Below, piece by piece: positions 16,792 to 23,961 of a stretch of 64,000 nt of DNA (its first letter is position 1; each line of letters opens with the position of its first letter). Source of the stretch: Streptomyces sp. NBC_01788 (GTDB taxonomy: Bacteria; Actinomycetota; Actinomycetes; Streptomycetales; Streptomycetaceae); NCBI RefSeq assembly GCF_035917575.1, contig NZ_CP109090.1:4216001-4280000 (forward strand), written 5' to 3'. The notes under the pieces were generated by a model that was not told the DNA's origin, did not search any database, and saw nothing but the letters and a program-made list of their open reading frames with translations. The position numbers and the translations under genes were made by a program.

Positions 16792-17823
<1,032 letters not shown>

Positions 17824-17944: not shown

Positions 17945-19495
17945 ATGGCTGTCACCGCACAGCACGCCCCCGCCGTCAGGATCTCCAGCCCCACCGGCCG
18001 CTGGATCCTGCTCACCACCGTGCTCGGCTCCAGCATGGCCCTGCTGGACTCGACCGTCGTCAACGTCGCCCTGCCCCGCATCGGCCGCGACCTGGACGCG
18101 AACCTCGCCGCGCTGCAGTGGACGGTCAACGCCTACATGGTCACCCTGGCCGGCCTGATCCTCCTCGGCGGCTCACTCGGCGACCGCTACGGCCGCCGCA
18201 GGATCTTCGTGCTCGGTGTCGTCTGGTTCGCCTCCGCCTCCCTGCTGTGCGGCCTCGCCCCGAACGTGACCGTCCTGATCGCCGCCCGCGCCCTGCAAGG
18301 GATCGGCGGGGCCCTCCTCACCCCCGGCTCGCTCGCCCTCATCCAGGCCTCCTTCCACCCGGACGACCGGGGCAGGGCCGTCGGCCTGTGGTCCGGCTTC
18401 GGCGGCATCGGCGCGGCCGTCGGCCCGTTCCTCGGCGGCTGGCTGGTCGCCGGGCCCGGCTGGCGCTGGGTCTTCCTGCTCAACATCCCGGTGGCCCTGG
18501 TCTGCGCCCCCGTCGCCCTGCGCCACGTCCCCGAGTCCAGCGCCGCCACCGGCGGCACCTCCCCGTCCCAGCGCGGCCGGGAGCCCGGGAAAGGCGCCGC
18601 CCACGGCCGCTTCGACGTGCTGGGCGCGGCCCTCGGCGCCCTGTCCCTGGCCCTCGTGACGTACGCCCTGATCGAGGCCCGCCACGGCACCCTGGCCGTC
18701 GCCCTCACCGCCGCCGCGGGCGTGCTCGCCGCCGTCGCCTTCGTGTACGTGGAGAAGCACCGCGCCGATCCGATGGTGCCGCCGGACATCTTCGCCTCCC
18801 GCCAGTTCACCGCCGTCAACCTGGTCACCCTGTGCGTGTACGCGGCCTTCGGCGGCTTCTTCTTCCTCACCGCCCTGCAACTCCAGGTGGTGGCCGGTTA
18901 CTCACCGCTGAAGGCGGGCACCGCCCTGCTCCCGACCACCGTCCTCATGCTGCTGTTCTCGGCCCGTTCGGGCGCCCTCGCCGACCGCATCGGGCCGCGC
19001 CTGCCGCTCACCGTCGGGCCGTTGCTGTGCGCGGTGGCGATGCTGCTGATGCTGCGGGTCGGCAAGGGCGCGCACTACCTCACGGACGTGCTCCCGGCCC
19101 TGCTCGTCATGGGCGCGGGCATGGTCACCCTGGTCGCCCCGCTCACCGCCACCGTGCTCGCCTCGGTGGACACCTCCCGCGCCGGGCTGGCCAGCGGCAT
19201 CAACAACGCCGCCGCCCGCGCGGCCGGCCTGATCGCGGTGGCCGCGCTGCCGCTGCTGGCCGGGATGGGCCCCGAGGCGTACCGCTCGGCGGACGCCTTC
19301 GACGTCGCGTTCCGCCGGGCCATGCCGATCTGCGCGGCGGTCCTGGTGGTGGGGGCGGTCCTCGCCTTCGTCGCCGTCCGCCGCCCGGTCAAGGGCTGCC
19401 GCCGGCCCGAGTGCCGCACCCACGGCAGTGTGACGACACCGCCGCTGGAGACGGGCCGCGGAGGTGCGGCCCCCGGCACCGGTCCGGCTTCGTGA
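17945..19495 (+). CDS. DHA2-type MFS multidrug exporter
   Basis: A 516-residue membrane protein with about 14 transmembrane helices of the EmrB/QacA drug:proton antiporter group. Markers are 'GSSMALLDSTVVNVALPRIG' in the first helix (motif D1), 'GSLGDRYGRRRIFVLG' (motif A, loop 2-3) and 'GGALLTPGSLALIQASF' with 'GGIGAAVGPFLGGWL' (motif C). A charged loop of about 30 residues lies near residues 195-225. No TetR or MarR regulator is adjacent, so the substrate and control are unknown. No Shine-Dalgarno box is visible before ATG 17945. Confidence 0.9.
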   Translation: MAVTAQHAPAVRISSPTGRWILLTTVLGSSMALLDSTVVNVALPRIGRDLDANLAALQWTVNAYMVTLAGLILLGGSLGDRYGRRRIFVLGVVWFASASLLCGLAPNVTVLIAARALQGIGGALLTPGSLALIQASFHPDDRGRAVGLWSGFGGIGAAVGPFLGGWLVAGPGWRWVFLLNIPVALVCAPVALRHVPESSAATGGTSPSQRGREPGKGAAHGRFDVLGAALGALSLALVTYALIEARHGTLAVALTAAAGVLAAVAFVYVEKHRADPMVPPDIFASRQFTAVNLVTLCVYAAFGGFFFLTALQLQVVAGYSPLKAGTALLPTTVLMLLFSARSGALADRIGPRLPLTVGPLLCAVAMLLMLRVGKGAHYLTDVLPALLVMGAGMVTLVAPLTATVLASVDTSRAGLASGINNAAARAAGLIAVAALPLLAGMGPEAYRSADAFDVAFRRAMPICAAVLVVGAVLAFVAVRRPVKGCRRPECRTHGSVTTPPLETGRGGAAPGTGPAS

Positions 19496-19570
19496 GCCGT
19501 GGAAGGGGCCGTTCCGCTGCTGCCGGGATCGGCCGTCACCGACGACGGACCATGCATCAGACTGAACCCC

Positions 19571-19888
19571 ATGACCATTCACGAGAACCTCCTGGGCGGG
19601 CCCCCGCCCACGCACCTCCCCGACGACCCGGAACCCCGTGAGCTCCTCGCCAAGGGGACCTCGCCGGCCGAGGTGGCGGCGCGTTACCCGGCGTCGTCGC
19701 TGGCCTGGGCGCAGCTCGCCGACGACGCCTTCGAGCGGGGGGCGGCCGTGGAGTCGTACGCGTACGCCCGTACGGGCTACCACCGCGGACTGGACGCCCT
19801 GCGCCGCAGCGGCTGGAAGGGCCACGGTCCGGTCCCCTGGGAGAAGGGTGCTACACGTGATCGTGCACTCGGTGCCGCCGCTTCCTGA
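19571..19888 (+). pseudogene. 5' part of a DUF3151 gene, interrupted by an integrated element
   Basis: The first 90 codons encode a typical DUF3151 protein ('NLLGGPPPTHLPDDPEPREL', 'YPASSLAWAQLADDAFERG', 'YARTGYHRGLDALRRSGWKG'), but after 'GPVPWE' the sequence leaves the family and stops 15 codons later at 19888. The missing end is found 2.97 kb downstream at 22813-22958, beyond a serine-recombinase element. CAGACT at 19558-19563 lies 7 bases before the ATG, suggesting a leaderless start. DUF3151 proteins are conserved across actinobacteria and have no assigned function. Confidence 0.85.
19840..19857. other. left attachment junction (attL)
   Basis: Host DUF3151 sequence ends at the shared core GGAG (19840-19843). 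The element side carries TACACG (19852-19857), an arm inverted relative to CGTGTA at the other end. The exact crossover dinucleotide cannot be fixed without an uninterrupted homologue. Confidence 0.6.
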
Positions 19889-19924
19889 GAGCGGCGGCAC
19901 ATTTCGTTTGAGCCTCGGTGACGG

Positions 19925-20344
19925 TTACCGCTTCAGCTCGGCGTACGCCTCGGCGCTGCTGTCCTGAAGGAATTGCCAGCAACGCTCCGTCTCGTCCTTC
20001 TCGTTGATCTCGCCGGCGGCGCGGCCGAGGGCAGCGAGGCAGCGCAGGAAGCCGCGATTGGCGCGGTGGTCCCAAGGGATGGGGCCATGCCCCTTCCATC
20101 CGGCCCGGCGCAGGGCGTCCAGGCCGCGGTGATAGCCGGTGCGCGCGTAGGCGTACGACTCGACAACTCGCCCCGCTTCGAAGGCGTCGTCGGCGAGCAT
20201 TGCCCAGGCGAGCGAGAACGTGGGGTGCTGCGCCACGACCTCGGCCGGGGGCTGGGACTCCTCGCCCAGCAGGCGGTACGCCTCTTCGTTCTCCGGCAGG
20301 TATGTCGGCTCCGGGCCGCCGAGCAGGTTCTTGTGAGTCGTCAT
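19925..20344 (-). CDS. intact DUF3151 protein carried by the element
   Basis: A complete 139-residue DUF3151 protein ('NLLGGPEPTYLPENEEAYRL', 'FSLAWAMLADDAFEAGRVV', 'WDHRANRGFLRCLAALGRAA', 'CWQFLQDSSAEAYAELKR'). It covers both the region left in the host 5' fragment and the region stranded in the 3' fragment, but differs at many third positions and in protein sequence, so it is an old paralogue and not a fresh copy of the broken gene. CAGACT lies 6 bases before the ATG, as at the host gene. It is transcribed divergently from the recombinase. By position it can replace the function destroyed by insertion (inference). Confidence 0.85.
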   Translation of the reverse strand: MTTHKNLLGGPEPTYLPENEEAYRLLGEESQPPAEVVAQHPTFSLAWAMLADDAFEAGRVVESYAYARTGYHRGLDALRRAGWKGHGPIPWDHRANRGFLRCLAALGRAAGEINEKDETERCWQFLQDSSAEAYAELKR

Positions 20345-20429
20345 GCCGCCAGTCTGCCACTTGTGGCCAGGTATACGGGACGTCTACGGGAGAGAACGGC
20401 CGTGGATCGATGGCAAATCAGAATGGCGG

Positions 20430-20459
20430 TTGATGTATCTGATCGCAATGTGCGACGAT
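20430..20459 (+). promoter_or_regulatory. candidate promoter of the recombinase gene
   Basis: TTGATG (20430-20435) and GACGAT (20454-20459) are 18 bases apart, and the -10 element ends 7 bases before the ATG, consistent with a leaderless transcript. Confidence 0.4.
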
Positions 20460-20466
20460 CCGGCGC

Positions 20467-21915
20467 ATGGCAGCACGACGGGGGTCCTCCGGGGCCGTAC
20501 AGGTGGGCATTTACACCCGGATCAGCAAGGACGACGAGGCCGAGGGGCTGGGCGTCGCGCGTCAGGAGGAGGACTGCCGACTGCACTGTGCCGCCAGGGG
20601 CTGGGAGGTGGCCCGGGTCTACGAGGACAACGACCTCTCGGCGTACAAGCGCAAGACCGTGCGCCCGGAGTTCCGTCAGATGCTGGAGGACCTCAAGGCC
20701 GGGCGGATCGACGGAGTCGTCGCCTGGGACATCGACCCCTTCACGCGCCAGCCGCGCGAACTGGAGGCATGGATCGACGAGTACGAGGATGCCGAGCGCC
20801 GGAAGCGCCACCTCGTCTTCGATTCCGTCTCGGCGTCGGACATCGACCTGTCCACGGAAAACGGCCGGTTCATCGCGCGGATCAAGGTGACCATCGCCAA
20901 CAAGTCTTCGGCAGACACGTCGAAGCGGACGAAGCGCAAACACCTGGAACTGGCGGCGAAGGGCAAGCTCCCTGGTGGTCGGGCGCCGTACGGATGGAAC
21001 CGCGAGGACCGCAGGACGCTGGTGCCGGAAGAGGCCGAGAACCTCCGCAAGGCAGTGAAGGACTTCCTGGGGGGCATCCGTTGGGCGTCGATCGCGCGTG
21101 AGTGGCGGGACAAGGGGATCCGGTCGCACAGCGGAGGCTTCTTCGACGACTCCAAGATCAAGCGGATGCTGATGAACCCGCGGATCTGTGGCTACCGGAT
21201 GCATCAGGGGGAGTTGTTCCTGGACGAGGGTGGGGAGCCCGTCGTGGGTGACTGGGAGCCGGTCATCACCCCCGACGACTGGTATCTGCTCACGGAGAAG
21301 GTCCGGCGTGAGGCGGAGGGACGAGCTGTACGGGACTACGCCACCAAGTACCTGCTCTCGGGCATCGCCCGGTGCGGGCGGTGTGGTGCGAAGATGCGGG
21401 CGTTCCCGTCGTACCGGAAGTCGAAGACGTCATCCCAGTTCAGGTACGCGTGCCCCGGCAAGAACGACGGTGGATGTGGGGGAGTGGCCAGGGCGGGCGA
21501 ACCAGTCGATCGCCTCATCAGAAACGCTGTGTTCCTCAGCTCGGACAGGGCGCCGGCGAATGTCCGTGTGCGCATGCCGGAATGGGGCAAGGAGGAGCAA
21601 CTGGCCTCCCTGGAAAGAGACATGGCAGAGTTCAAGCAGGCGTGGCAGGAGAAGCGCATGTCGGCCGCTCGCTACATCGCGCTCACCGAGGATCTGGAGA
21701 AGCAGATCGCGGAGCTGCATCGGGAGCGAGCCCTGCATCGTGCCGAGGCCGCGACCTTCTCGGTCGGCCCTGTCGACATACGGGAGCGGTGGGAGAAGCT
21801 GACGATCGAGCAGCAGCGGGCAGCCGTTCTCAAGGTCTTCCGCGCGGTCATCGTCAAGCCCGCGTCCAACGGGCCGATTTTCGCCCCCGCGGACATCGAG
21901 CCGGTGCTTAGGTGA
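20467..21915 (+). CDS. large serine recombinase (integrase)
   Basis: A 482-residue serine recombinase. The N-terminal catalytic domain (12-155) holds the nucleophile Ser20 in 'IYTRISKDDEAEG', with 'LEDLKAGRIDGVVAWDIDPF' and 'RFIARIKVTIANKSSADTSK'. A Recombinase domain follows (about 175-290, 'LPGGRAPYGWNREDR', 'LMNPRICGYRMHQG'), then a zinc ribbon with Cys pairs in 'GIARCGRCGAKM' and 'YACPGKNDGGCGG', and a coiled-coil stretch near 375-425. This is the architecture of phage and element integrases that join short attP and attB sites. All parts look intact, so it may still be active. 'DPFTRQPRELEAW' replaces the more common 'DRLTRxPxE'. Confidence 0.93.
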   Translation: MAARRGSSGAVQVGIYTRISKDDEAEGLGVARQEEDCRLHCAARGWEVARVYEDNDLSAYKRKTVRPEFRQMLEDLKAGRIDGVVAWDIDPFTRQPRELEAWIDEYEDAERRKRHLVFDSVSASDIDLSTENGRFIARIKVTIANKSSADTSKRTKRKHLELAAKGKLPGGRAPYGWNREDRRTLVPEEAENLRKAVKDFLGGIRWASIAREWRDKGIRSHSGGFFDDSKIKRMLMNPRICGYRMHQGELFLDEGGEPVVGDWEPVITPDDWYLLTEKVRREAEGRAVRDYATKYLLSGIARCGRCGAKMRAFPSYRKSKTSSQFRYACPGKNDGGCGGVARAGEPVDRLIRNAVFLSSDRAPANVRVRMPEWGKEEQLASLERDMAEFKQAWQEKRMSAARYIALTEDLEKQIAELHRERALHRAEAATFSVGPVDIRERWEKLTIEQQRAAVLKVFRAVIVKPASNGPIFAPADIEPVLR

Positions 21916-21960
21916 AGAACGAAGCCGGCCCCCGTTGCGGCTGGGGCCCGGCTTCGTTCT
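21916..21960. terminator. bidirectional terminator after the recombinase
   Basis: AGAACGAAGCCGG (21916-21928) pairs perfectly with CCGGCTTCGTTCT (21948-21960), with further C/G pairs inside. It begins right after the stop codon and has A/T-rich ends on both strands. Confidence 0.85.
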
Positions 21961-22530
21961 TTCACGACCGGTCTATGCCGAAGATGCGCAGCAGGTCGTC
22001 GACCCACTCCTCGTCCGGTCAGGGAGCTGAGCCTCTACTCGGCGCAGCCACTCGTCTTCAGCCCGCGGGCGACGAACCCGATGTCGTGCCTGTGTCCGAG
22101 GGGGCGCAGATACTGGCTGACCTGCGTGGGTGAGCCCGCGCTTGGCTGGCCGAGGAGGGCTGCTTTCCGAGCCTCCCTGCGCCGCCGCGGACGGTGGAAT
22201 CCTGACCCGTCCACCGCGTCGTGACGAGACCGAGGCGTTCTCTACCTACGTAGTTCCGCCACGGCTTGCCGAGCCTGGTCGCGAGGAAGGACAGCTCCGC
22301 CACTTGCACACCATATTGGCGCGCGTCGTCAAGTGTGAGCGGACAGGTGGCACAAGCTGGACCGGGCGGCATCCCGTGCTCGGTCGCTCGTCGCTGACCA
22401 GTGGAAACACGACGCGGCGGCACCGCCCGGCAGCCGTCGTCGCGATCTTGCAGGCGCTCGTAGTGCGCAGGTCTCAGCTCCGTCGAACCAATCTGGACCG
22501 AACCTCATTCGGGACGAAGAGGCCATCGGT
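21961..22530. other. decayed cargo of the integrated element
   Basis: No intact gene is convincing here and G/C content is lower than in the neighbours. Fragments of coding character are visible on the minus strand: an 18-residue end ('PDEEWVDDLLRIFGIDRS', stop at 21962-21964) and a stretch near 22200-22370 ('CPLTLDDARQYGVQVAELSF', 'RLGKPWRNYVGRERLGL') in a frame with no plausible start or end. These look like broken accessory genes. Confidence 0.5.
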
Positions 22531-22764
22531 TCAGCTTCTGTCGGTTTGCGAGGGAGCCTGGACCCTCGTCGACTCGCTGGTGTGCCTCGAAGCGTCGCCG
22601 TCATTGAGAGCGGCACTGGTCCCGGCGGGTTGGCAAGCCTCTCCCGTCGGGGGCTTGTCACCTGCCCACTCCGTGGAGCAGATCCTGGCGAGGTCCGACA
22701 CCCATTCCAGGTTCCGCTTCGGCAACTGGGCCGCGAGGTTGTCCAGCCACTCCTGCTCGGTCAT
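22531..22764 (-). CDS. small hypothetical protein of the element, possibly truncated
   Basis: A 77-residue reading frame whose first 35 residues look genuine ('MTEQEWLDNLAAQLPKRN', 'LEWVSDLARICSTEWAGD'), preceded by GAGGG about 9 bases before the ATG. The remainder is Ser/Thr-rich and less convincing, so the frame may be shifted. Its 'EWVSDLARI' resembles 'EWVDDLLRI' in the minus-strand fragment ending at 21962, suggesting two members of one small family. Function unknown. Confidence 0.4.
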   Translation of the reverse strand: MTEQEWLDNLAAQLPKRNLEWVSDLARICSTEWAGDKPPTGEACQPAGTSAALNDGDASRHTSESTRVQAPSQTDRS

Positions 22765-22786
22765 AACCGTGCCCTCGTAGGTCTCT

Positions 22787-22816
22787 CGTGTACATCCTCC
22801 GCCACTTTCTTAGGAG
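22787..22816. other. right attachment junction (attR)
   Basis: CGTGTA at 22787-22792 is the element-side arm and GGAG at 22813-22816 the shared core, after which the interrupted DUF3151 coding sequence resumes. It is the partner of the left junction at 19840-19857. Confidence 0.6.
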
Positions 22817-22958
22817 CGCGAGCCCAACCACCGGCTTCCTGCGCGCCCTGCACGCCCTCGCGCGCGCCGCCCGGGCGATCGGCGAGCAGGAGGAGTACGA
22901 GCGCTGCGCGCAGTTCCTGAAGGACTCCTCGGAGACGGCCGCGCAGACGCTGGGCTGA
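22813..22958 (+). pseudogene. 3' part of the interrupted DUF3151 gene
   Basis: From 22833 to the stop at 22956-22958 the sequence encodes the C-terminal half of a DUF3151 protein ('GFLRALHALARAARAIGEQE', 'CAQFLKDSSETAAQTLG'). It has no start codon of its own. Re-joining it to the 5' fragment through the GGAG core gives a one-base frame offset near 22828, so either the core is slightly different or the stranded end has begun to decay. It is closely similar to the family consensus, so the insertion is not very old. Confidence 0.8.
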
Positions 22959-23103: not shown

Positions 23104-23961
23104 ATGTCCCAACCGGCTCACCCGACCCCTCAGCCCGCTGAGGCCTCTGAGCCCGAGACCCCGCATCTCGACTTCGCCGGCACGACGCCGTACGAGGACT
23201 ACGTCAGGGCGGACGTGCTCACCCACCTCCAGCACACCCTCTCCGACGACCCCGGAGAGATGGTCTTCCTGGTCACCACCCAGGTGATGGAGCTGTGGTT
23301 CACCGTCATCGTCCACGAGTGGGAGACCGCGGCCCGCGCCCTGCGCTCGGACGACGTGCCGACGGCGGTCGCCGCGTTGAAGAGGTCCGTACGGGAGCTG
23401 CAGGCGCTGAACGCCTCCTGGAAGCCGCTCGCCGGGCTCACTCCGGCCCAGTTCAACAGCTACCGCGGCGCCCTCGGCGAGGGTTCCGGATTCCAGTCCG
23501 CGATGTACCGCCGCATGGAGTTCCTGCTCGGCGACAAGTCCGCCTCGATGCTCGTCCCGCACCGCGGCGCCCCCCGCGTCCACGCGGAACTGGAGAAGGC
23601 GCTGCACGAGCCGAGCCTGTACGACGAGGTGCTGCGGCTGCTCGCGCGCCGCGGGCACGCGGTCCCGGACGCCGTGCTCGGCCGGGACGTGACGCTGCGC
23701 TACGAGCCCAGCGAGGAGGTCGAGGCCGTCTGGACGGCCCTCTACTCCGGTGACCAGGACGACGAACTGGCCCGGCTCGGCGAGGCGTTGACCGATGTCG
23801 CCGAACTGGTGTGGCGCTGGCGCAACGACCACCTCGTGGCCACCCGCCGTGCGATGGGCGCCAAGTCCGGCACGGGCGGCTCCGCCGGGGTGGCCTGGCT
23901 GGAGAAGCGGGCCCGGAAGAACGTCTTCCCCGAGCTGTGGACGGCGAGGTCCCATGTCTGA
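23104..23961 (+). CDS. kynA: tryptophan 2,3-dioxygenase
   Basis: A 285-residue haem dioxygenase that opens the indole ring of L-tryptophan to N-formylkynurenine. Family signatures are 'LDFAGTTPYEDYVRADVL', the haem/substrate region 'EMVFLVTTQVMELWFTVIVH' and 'SWKPLAGLTPAQFNSYRGAL', and 'MGAKSGTGGSAGVAWLEKR' near the end. Length is normal. AGGAGA is 6 bases before the ATG at 23104. It overlaps kynU by 8 bases, so both are made from one message. In S. coelicolor the orthologous genes are known to form the tryptophan catabolic cluster. Confidence 0.95.
   Translation: MSQPAHPTPQPAEASEPETPHLDFAGTTPYEDYVRADVLTHLQHTLSDDPGEMVFLVTTQVMELWFTVIVHEWETAARALRSDDVPTAVAALKRSVRELQALNASWKPLAGLTPAQFNSYRGALGEGSGFQSAMYRRMEFLLGDKSASMLVPHRGAPRVHAELEKALHEPSLYDEVLRLLARRGHAVPDAVLGRDVTLRYEPSEEVEAVWTALYSGDQDDELARLGEALTDVAELVWRWRNDHLVATRRAMGAKSGTGGSAGVAWLEKRARKNVFPELWTARSHV

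Follow-up and report, generated by a model that had tools for sequence, protein, structure and literature searches.

Some mobile elements, among them SXT in prfC and SCCmec in rlmH, preserve or rebuild the end of the gene into which they insert. GInts insert at an ssb homologue and keep or restore the gene end (excerpts of PMC5385486). Among integrative mobilizable elements (IMEs), those with a serine integrase disrupt genes that the host can dispense with, and those at gene ends, mostly with a tyrosine integrase, leave their target intact (passages of a review, PMC5704250). Here we describe an element in a stretch of 64,000 nucleotides from Streptomyces sp. NBC_01788 (the window, i.e., the whole of the DNA analysed) that breaks a gene of the DUF3151 family and brings a complete DUF3151 gene of its own. 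We are fairly confident that it descends from an IME with a built-in whole-gene rescue, which has repeatedly replaced a core gene. The element resembles the serine-integrase IMEs in its site-specific serine integrase, in the relaxase and MobC-like genes of its larger forms, and in its insertion inside a conserved protein gene; unlike the IMEs in the passages of that review, it carries a complete foreign gene for the one it breaks. As with GInts, SXT and SCCmec, the host function would be kept after insertion into a conserved gene. Those elements rebuild or spare one end, whereas here the native gene remains interrupted and its place is taken by a separate gene on the opposite strand.

A broken and an intact DUF3151 gene at one locus

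The native DUF3151 gene (hereafter, type A) starts with an ATG at position 19571 of the forward strand and is broken after exactly 91 codons (5' part, 19571–19843, with a PF11349 match); its 3' part lies on the same strand at 22817–22958, beyond an insert of 2,973 bp (19844–22816), a reduced relative of elements of 25–29 kb. The first-pass annotation had put the cut after codon about 91 and the missing end 2.97 kb away past a serine recombinase, and both figures proved exact. The complete but diverged DUF3151 protein that it had noticed inside the element (hereafter, type B) has 139 amino acids (aa), is encoded on the reverse strand at 19925–20344, and is 68% identical to the native 5' part. 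This proposed rescue gene belongs to the family on a score of 189 bits against PF11349 (cut-off 28.4; positions 2–126 of 127; Pfam E = 4e-56). The whole genome (8.27 Mb, one contig) has three PF11349 matches, the two native pieces and the element gene, which is thus its sole complete DUF3151. On the forward strand follows an intact large serine recombinase of 482 aa (the integrase; 20467–21915), with Resolvase N-terminal, Recombinase and zinc-ribbon Pfam domains all above cut-off, as in large serine integrases, and a match to PHROG 95, integrase (E = 5e-97).

GGAG stands at both junctions (19840–19843 and 22813–22816, forward strand), as first reported. On the left it is part of TGGGAG (19838–19843), on the right it precedes the native 3' part, and these are the putative cores of attL and attR. 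The inverted arms described with them are also present, TACACG at 19852–19857 and CGTGTA at 22788–22793 (forward-strand letters); at the left arm two related elements (in genomes G268 and G394) have TACATG and a third (G395) AGATGT. TGGGAG recurs at the left junction of all three; G268 and G394 have it at the right junction too, as does G393, and the right site reads TTAGGAG in the window and CTGAGAG in G395. The core shared by the two junctions is therefore TGGGAG in G268 and G394, GGAG in the window and GAG in G395. Alignment with uninterrupted loci, recommended for fixing attB, gave a core of TGGGAG-CAC-GA in 30/30 type A loci, which were not drawn at random but taken as the 30 best matches to Pfam.

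When the flanks were joined in silico, a complete native gene of 137 codons resulted for three of the four elements tried (G268, G395 and, joined from two contigs, G394). In the window a one-base shift just past the junction puts the right native piece out of frame with the left, so exact excision would yield a frameshifted gene. The idea that excision restores the frame thus holds, by such joining, for the three relatives and fails for the window; the larger elements would be reversible in principle, the window element not. At its left junction the native frame continues for 14 codons to a stop (105 aa in total). Because this frame stops early, and intact DUF3151 is a separate gene on the other strand, the element does not restore the end of its target gene.

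Three neighbours on the forward strand served as synteny markers: fba (16792–17823; presumably fructose-bisphosphate aldolase, used also for a tree), mfs (17945–19495; which we take to be a major facilitator superfamily (MFS) transporter) on the left, and tdo (23104–23961; by our assumption tryptophan 2,3-dioxygenase) on the right, a homologue of which adjoins DUF3151 in most loci read.

Recurrence, orientation and remnants

The integrase was searched against a genome contig collection, which yielded five named Streptomyces loci with integrases 89–95% identical, and against 392 Streptomyces genomes, which yielded four at 92–100%, window included, the next identity being 45%. With S. luteolifulvus (L004) and G382 counted as one genome, close integrases occur in eight genomes, and the seven beyond the window (89–95% identity) all have them at the same site beside type B. 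A search for similar recombinases next to DUF3151 genes had been recommended, and in 8/8 type B is directly beside the integrase, on the opposite strand and downstream of fba; a transporter gene separates fba and type B in seven, and neither the window integrase nor its seven close relatives have internal stops. The same arrangement in seven other genomes is more than chance. It occurs in independent assemblies, including the single-contig G000, G268 and G253, and these relatives already refute an assembly artefact or a chance duplication in one genome, to which we give practically no credence. A protein collection contains 13 full-length integrase clusters at 81–93% and five shorter ones (293–344 aa), beyond which identity falls to 45%.

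Among the 20 loci of more distant integrases that were read (below), the rescue trait was not seen, and it thus appears limited to this close clade; the repeats found at those loci were related open reading frame (ORF) pairs (L206 and L220) and a duplicated transposase-like pair (L214). As a separate observation, made by eye, several of the 40–45% identical integrases (L201–L220), which belong to other Streptomyces elements, lie next to a conserved ORF with 'VAGFRIGRGRDN' that may mark a common site of insertion.

The distribution of DUF3151 was profiled with a close relative (P0001) as query, at most the best ten candidates per genome being scored, here and in the PF11349 count. A match was found in 381 of the 392 Streptomyces genomes. 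In 43 of the 381 (about one in nine) the only complete copy is type B, at 75–97% identity to P0001; the other rows listed are at most 73% identical, which leaves about 338 with type A by subtraction. G297 (70%, inverted) is an outlier, placed outside the 43 and kept in the trees. The type B genes of ten integrase-associated copies are complete 139-aa frames, and the other matches listed have no stops. A second intact DUF3151 in relatives lacking the element would weaken the rescue idea; two intact copies were seen in no genome of the 392 among the best ten candidates each, and the extra PF11349 matches in six genomes are fragments or one gene split by a frameshift (G119).

On a DUF3151 protein tree (119 rows, 139 columns), one branch parts all type B from everything else (Shimodaira–Hasegawa-like approximate likelihood ratio test (SH-aLRT), 93), most forks inside type B being weak. 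The four broken 5' fragments, of which that of the window is 85–88% identical to those of G268, G395 and G394, fall inside type A. The window fragment stands next to G148 (SH-aLRT 96), which is also the window's nearest row on a tree of fba and tdo. Since the window stands beside G148 on both trees and type B is separate, the broken gene is native and the intact gene foreign. The replacement of the broken gene by a separate copy, as originally proposed, is supported; the label of paralogue is not, and to judge from the tree the element gene is better called a xenologue, from a separate lineage rather than a duplicate of the host gene.

The fba and tdo tree, built from two genes beside the locus, comprises 96 genomes, 53 with type B (40 Streptomyces, 12 of other genera and G297) and 43 with type A (38 Streptomyces and five others). 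The A/B label changes at least 26 times on it, 18 changes being forced by branches with support ≥95, and 23 times for Streptomyces without G297, probably a lower bound given the small type A sample. The label is slightly more clustered than in shuffles (mean 31.7 changes; 9 of 500 as low). Such a count cannot separate gain from loss, and it is the nine loci with native remnants that show, as read at the loci themselves, a direction from A to B.

Those nine loci, with clear type A remnants beside type B, are in the window, G268, G395, G394, G393, G253, G382, G370 and G376, with G221 a weak tenth. The first seven and G396 have a complete integrase; G393, G253 and G382 keep only the native 3' piece and G396 none. 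The integrase is gone or reduced in G370 (native 3' piece kept), G376 (both native pieces, with short integrase pieces) and G293 (integrase pieces). Traces are weak in G326 (integrase, E = 4e-4) and G221 (native piece, E = 5e-5), matches to reversed sequence reaching E = 0.002. The search ran from 2.5 kb ahead of type B to 4.5 kb beyond it, together with fetched stretches of 6–14 kb, some ended by contig ends; the native piece of G370 lies outside the 2.5/4.5 kb stretch and was found in a separate reading of the locus.

Type B is on the strand opposite to fba, mfs and tdo in 46 of 47 Streptomyces loci (36 of 37 newly read, six known and four named). Type A shares the strand of fba, mfs or tdo in 30/30 and 39/39 loci, or 65/65 distinct genomes after removal of four shared ones. 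Of the outgroups, Nonomuraea and G397 could be compared with fba and carry DUF3151 on the native strand; in six more, fba was out of range. In other Streptomycetaceae genera 13 of 16 type-B-like genes were read, of which nine are inverted, three are not and one is of undetermined direction. In genera g7, g18 and g12 (L181–L193), DUF3151 is often type-B-like and mostly inverted beside fba, and both types occur in g18 and g12. The pattern in these genera suggests an older replacement there.

These data also bear on a different explanation, in which type B is an old native variant with an inverted locus, as in the other Streptomycetaceae genera, that spread by ordinary recombination and became the chance cargo of one element, the pairing with a DUF3151 target being secondary. 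Several observations favour it or otherwise weigh against repeated replacement by an element. No trace of integrase or native gene was found at 34 of the 47 type B loci in the stretches read; inverted type B without an integrase match occurs at nine of 12 other-genus loci of known direction, the other three being on the native strand; and type B overall shows more diversity than its integrase-bearing subset. In G377, the lone Streptomyces type B locus not inverted, DUF3151 lies upstream of fba, which we take as a rearrangement. No pair of broken gene and intact copy was seen at 20 loci with integrases 40–45% identical (20 of 47 genomes beyond the four close ones, read for about 7 kb per side or to the contig end). 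Finally, type B distances among the eight carriers track fba (r = 0.75, p = 0.01) more than the integrase (r = 0.51, p = 0.08).

The old-variant explanation has to contend with the scatter of type B among type A on the flanking-gene tree, with the native remnants at nine loci, with outgroups on the native strand, and with an orientation that element insertion would need to have matched by chance. On the DUF3151 tree, moreover, trace-free copies are interspersed with integrase carriers (8 changes over 8 rows) and with remnant carriers (5 changes over 5 rows), well supported branches forcing only two and one of these changes, respectively. We regard the explanation as unlikely. Under replacement by the element, the trace-free type B loci would likewise have arisen through it, as their orientation and the tree indicate. 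Because type B nucleotide distances follow fba more closely than the integrase, old insertions are suggested rather than recent free movement.

The proposed rescue copy and a possible need for DUF3151

The codon at the crossover is Glu in 37 of 39 type A genes (nine of them with TTC before it) and Asp or Ser in all eight integrase carriers. GAG is present at the core in 0/8 carriers, 15/51 other type B and 37/39 type A genes, rows that are few and non-independent (G091 and G297, where the motif was not found, were dropped). Type B departs from attB at the crossover and in the bases about it, and for this reason is probably not itself an integrase target. Less favourable to a protected copy are the 15 type B genes that have Glu/GAG without a complete integrase, the 11 of 39 type A genes that deviate from TGGGAG, and the attB region of type B, whose divergence by eye does not exceed that of the entire gene. 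We considered whether attB has been recoded under selection in the rescue copy; the data lean that way, but with few and non-independent rows we do not claim it.

Directly upstream of the type B ATG is CAGACTGGCGGC (20345–20356, reverse strand), a -10-like element from which a leaderless mRNA is probably made, so the rescue gene probably carries its own promoter. The first-pass annotation had remarked on the same CAGACT start arrangement in both copies. It does precede both start codons of the window (20345–20356 and 19558–19570). CAGACT directly precedes the ATG in 58 of 61 type B genes, in 22 of 39 Streptomyces type A genes (13 more are one base off and four have neither) and in three of seven type A genes of other genera. 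Being common in both types, it is a shared promoter-like feature and does not mark either copy as derived from the other.

The proposal that the element needs a rescue because DUF3151 matters gains support from the scarcity of losses. No convincing natural loss was found among the 392 genomes, and most of the 11 without a match are assembly gaps or lack the neighbour gene as well: in one the locus falls in a run of N, in three the contig ends just upstream of the neighbour gene, six are also without the neighbour, and in G168 the sole match to the neighbour gene is 67% identical and in another context. The partial match of G180 is a run of N, and G119 is a frameshift in a fragmented draft. Runs of N stand exactly at the DUF3151 locus in L102 (G180) and L263 (G010), both from genomes of few contigs.

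It could instead be that no rescue is needed, DUF3151 being dispensable and type B a neutral or beneficial cargo with another role. Serine-integrase IMEs do disrupt dispensable genes according to the passages of PMC5704250, and a search of the open-licence literature found no essentiality data for DUF3151, a further point against the rescue. Dispensability fits poorly with a family present in 381 of 392 genomes, most absences being explained by assembly gaps, with one intact copy per genome, and with a type B gene that remains complete under purifying selection as the integrase and the native gene deteriorate. Median dN/dS (Nei–Gojobori method, NG86) is 0.134 for type B (45 pairs, 10 copies), 0.098 for the integrase (8) and 0.136 for type A (15). 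We think a dispensable DUF3151 improbable, a little more so than an old native variant. The anatomy, att sites, recurrence, single intact copies, orientation, remnants and purifying selection are read from sequence. Our reading further supposes an active integrase, an expressed type B that can do the work of the native protein, and a host that depends on it.

The proposed course of events behind insertion and rescue is as follows. The serine integrase would recombine attP with attB at codons around 91 of DUF3151 and so break the gene, and the element would supply the complete foreign type B beside the integrase, on the opposite strand, with a promoter-like sequence directly before its start codon, so that it should not depend on host sequence. 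As long as both native halves are intact, exact excision would restore the native gene. Once they decay, the stage reached in the window, the host would depend on the element copy and the element would be trapped; erosion would then take its transfer genes and, in the end, its integrase, leaving type B as a permanent inverted replacement. Somewhat more tentatively than the rescue itself, we favour the fuller picture of a natural insert-and-rescue element that breaks a core gene, supplies a recoded copy that its integrase cannot hit and makes the host dependent, and that has supplanted the native DUF3151 on many occasions in Streptomyces, and probably one or more times among the ancestors of other Streptomycetaceae genera.

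DUF3151 is mentioned in lists in parts of two papers (PMC13118837 and PMC9425974). An AlphaFold2 model of type B is all-helical, with seven helices (mean predicted local distance difference test, pLDDT, 91). No sequence match was found in the PDB, and the Foldseek PDB list consists mainly of tetratricopeptide repeat (TPR) proteins, all at E >0.01, so a TPR-like fold is suggestive only.

The kind of element and its meaning

The less reduced elements measure 25,052 bp in G268 and 28,796 bp in G395, and a third (G394) is split over contigs. Pfam scans covered 17 of 24 predicted ORFs in G268 and 13 of 31 in G395, the ORFs being called by a simple in-house script. A MobA/VirD2-like relaxase (PF03432) is above cut-off in both, and MobC (PF05713) is above it in G268 and just below in G395 (22.9 of 23.2 bits). 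Both have helix-turn-helix regulators and DUF2637; DUF3631 occurs in G268 and a DnaB-like protein in G395. No complete conjugation apparatus was seen among the ORFs scanned, and no phage structural or packaging family in 30 large-element proteins (Pfam) or in ten (PHROGs). The window element has a family match only for the integrase and DUF3151 among the four ORFs scanned, and hence no mobilization gene of its own there. Because the large forms have an integrase together with relaxase and mobilization genes and no phage structural family, we name them IMEs, and the best reading of the window copy, on gene content, is a reduced derivative of one.

A prophage was rejected, there being no phage structural or packaging genes in the proteins scanned. 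An origin from a phage or plasmid was likewise rejected, as searches of phages, viral contigs and plasmids gave no close relative: DUF3151 had no match at E 1e-5 in 50,697 phage records, a viral contig collection held no relative of the integrase or type B, and in a plasmid set DUF3151 occurred on four large actinobacterial replicons, the best plasmid integrase being 32% identical. The integrases of the Streptomyces phage Ibantik (NC_073462) and of phrog_95 belong to the same large serine recombinase family (39% identity). Unlike those phages, the present element shows no phage structural family in the ten proteins scanned with PHROGs, and its DUF3151 has no phage match.

Near the right end of the window element a small ORF, MTEQEWLDNLAAQL.. 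(22531–22764, reverse strand), is a possible directionality factor or other end-linked protein, which is a guess; the window copy had no Pfam or PHROG match. Its start (MTEQEWLDSLAAQLPERDLEWVVDLARICSTEW) is conserved next to the right junction in the window, G268, G395, G394, G393, G253 and G382, i.e., at seven of the eight right ends searched, with ORF lengths of 20–77 aa. The DUF2637 protein lies at L092:9184–10269 in G268 and L095:9172–10164 in G395, and the G268 copy weakly matches PHROG 733, labelled excisionase (E = 8e-9). Another housekeeping-type gene is carried in G268 (L093:3748–6402), encoding an 884-aa class II alanyl-type tRNA synthetase (PF01411, E = 3e-188). Further cargo of G268 includes an ABC transporter ATPase, and that of G395 a two-component system and an alkyl sulfatase.

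The rescue copy of Cleave and Rescue (ClvR) is recoded. ClvR elements are man-made gene drive elements (from parts of PMC7951863), and the present element shares their logic, in that the native copy of a needed gene is broken and a resistant copy carried. ClvR is synthetic and made for sexual animals, whereas the present element is of natural, bacterial origin, relies on an integrase and combines break and rescue in a single insertion. No bacterial precedent for a whole-gene rescue was found in the open-licence literature, which as an absence is weak.

The finding is larger than first noted, namely a recurrent whole-gene replacement by an element targeting the same gene. If true, it would be a third way for elements to occupy needed genes, neither avoiding them nor rebuilding their end but carrying the whole gene, and a natural counterpart of man-made cleave-and-rescue drives. 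It would also be an in-place route for swapping a core gene to a foreign version, with the large element, the reduced element, the integrase remnant and the bare replacement gene as intermediates. For Streptomyces, it flags DUF3151, an uncharacterised all-helical protein, as a gene that these bacteria keep in just one intact copy.

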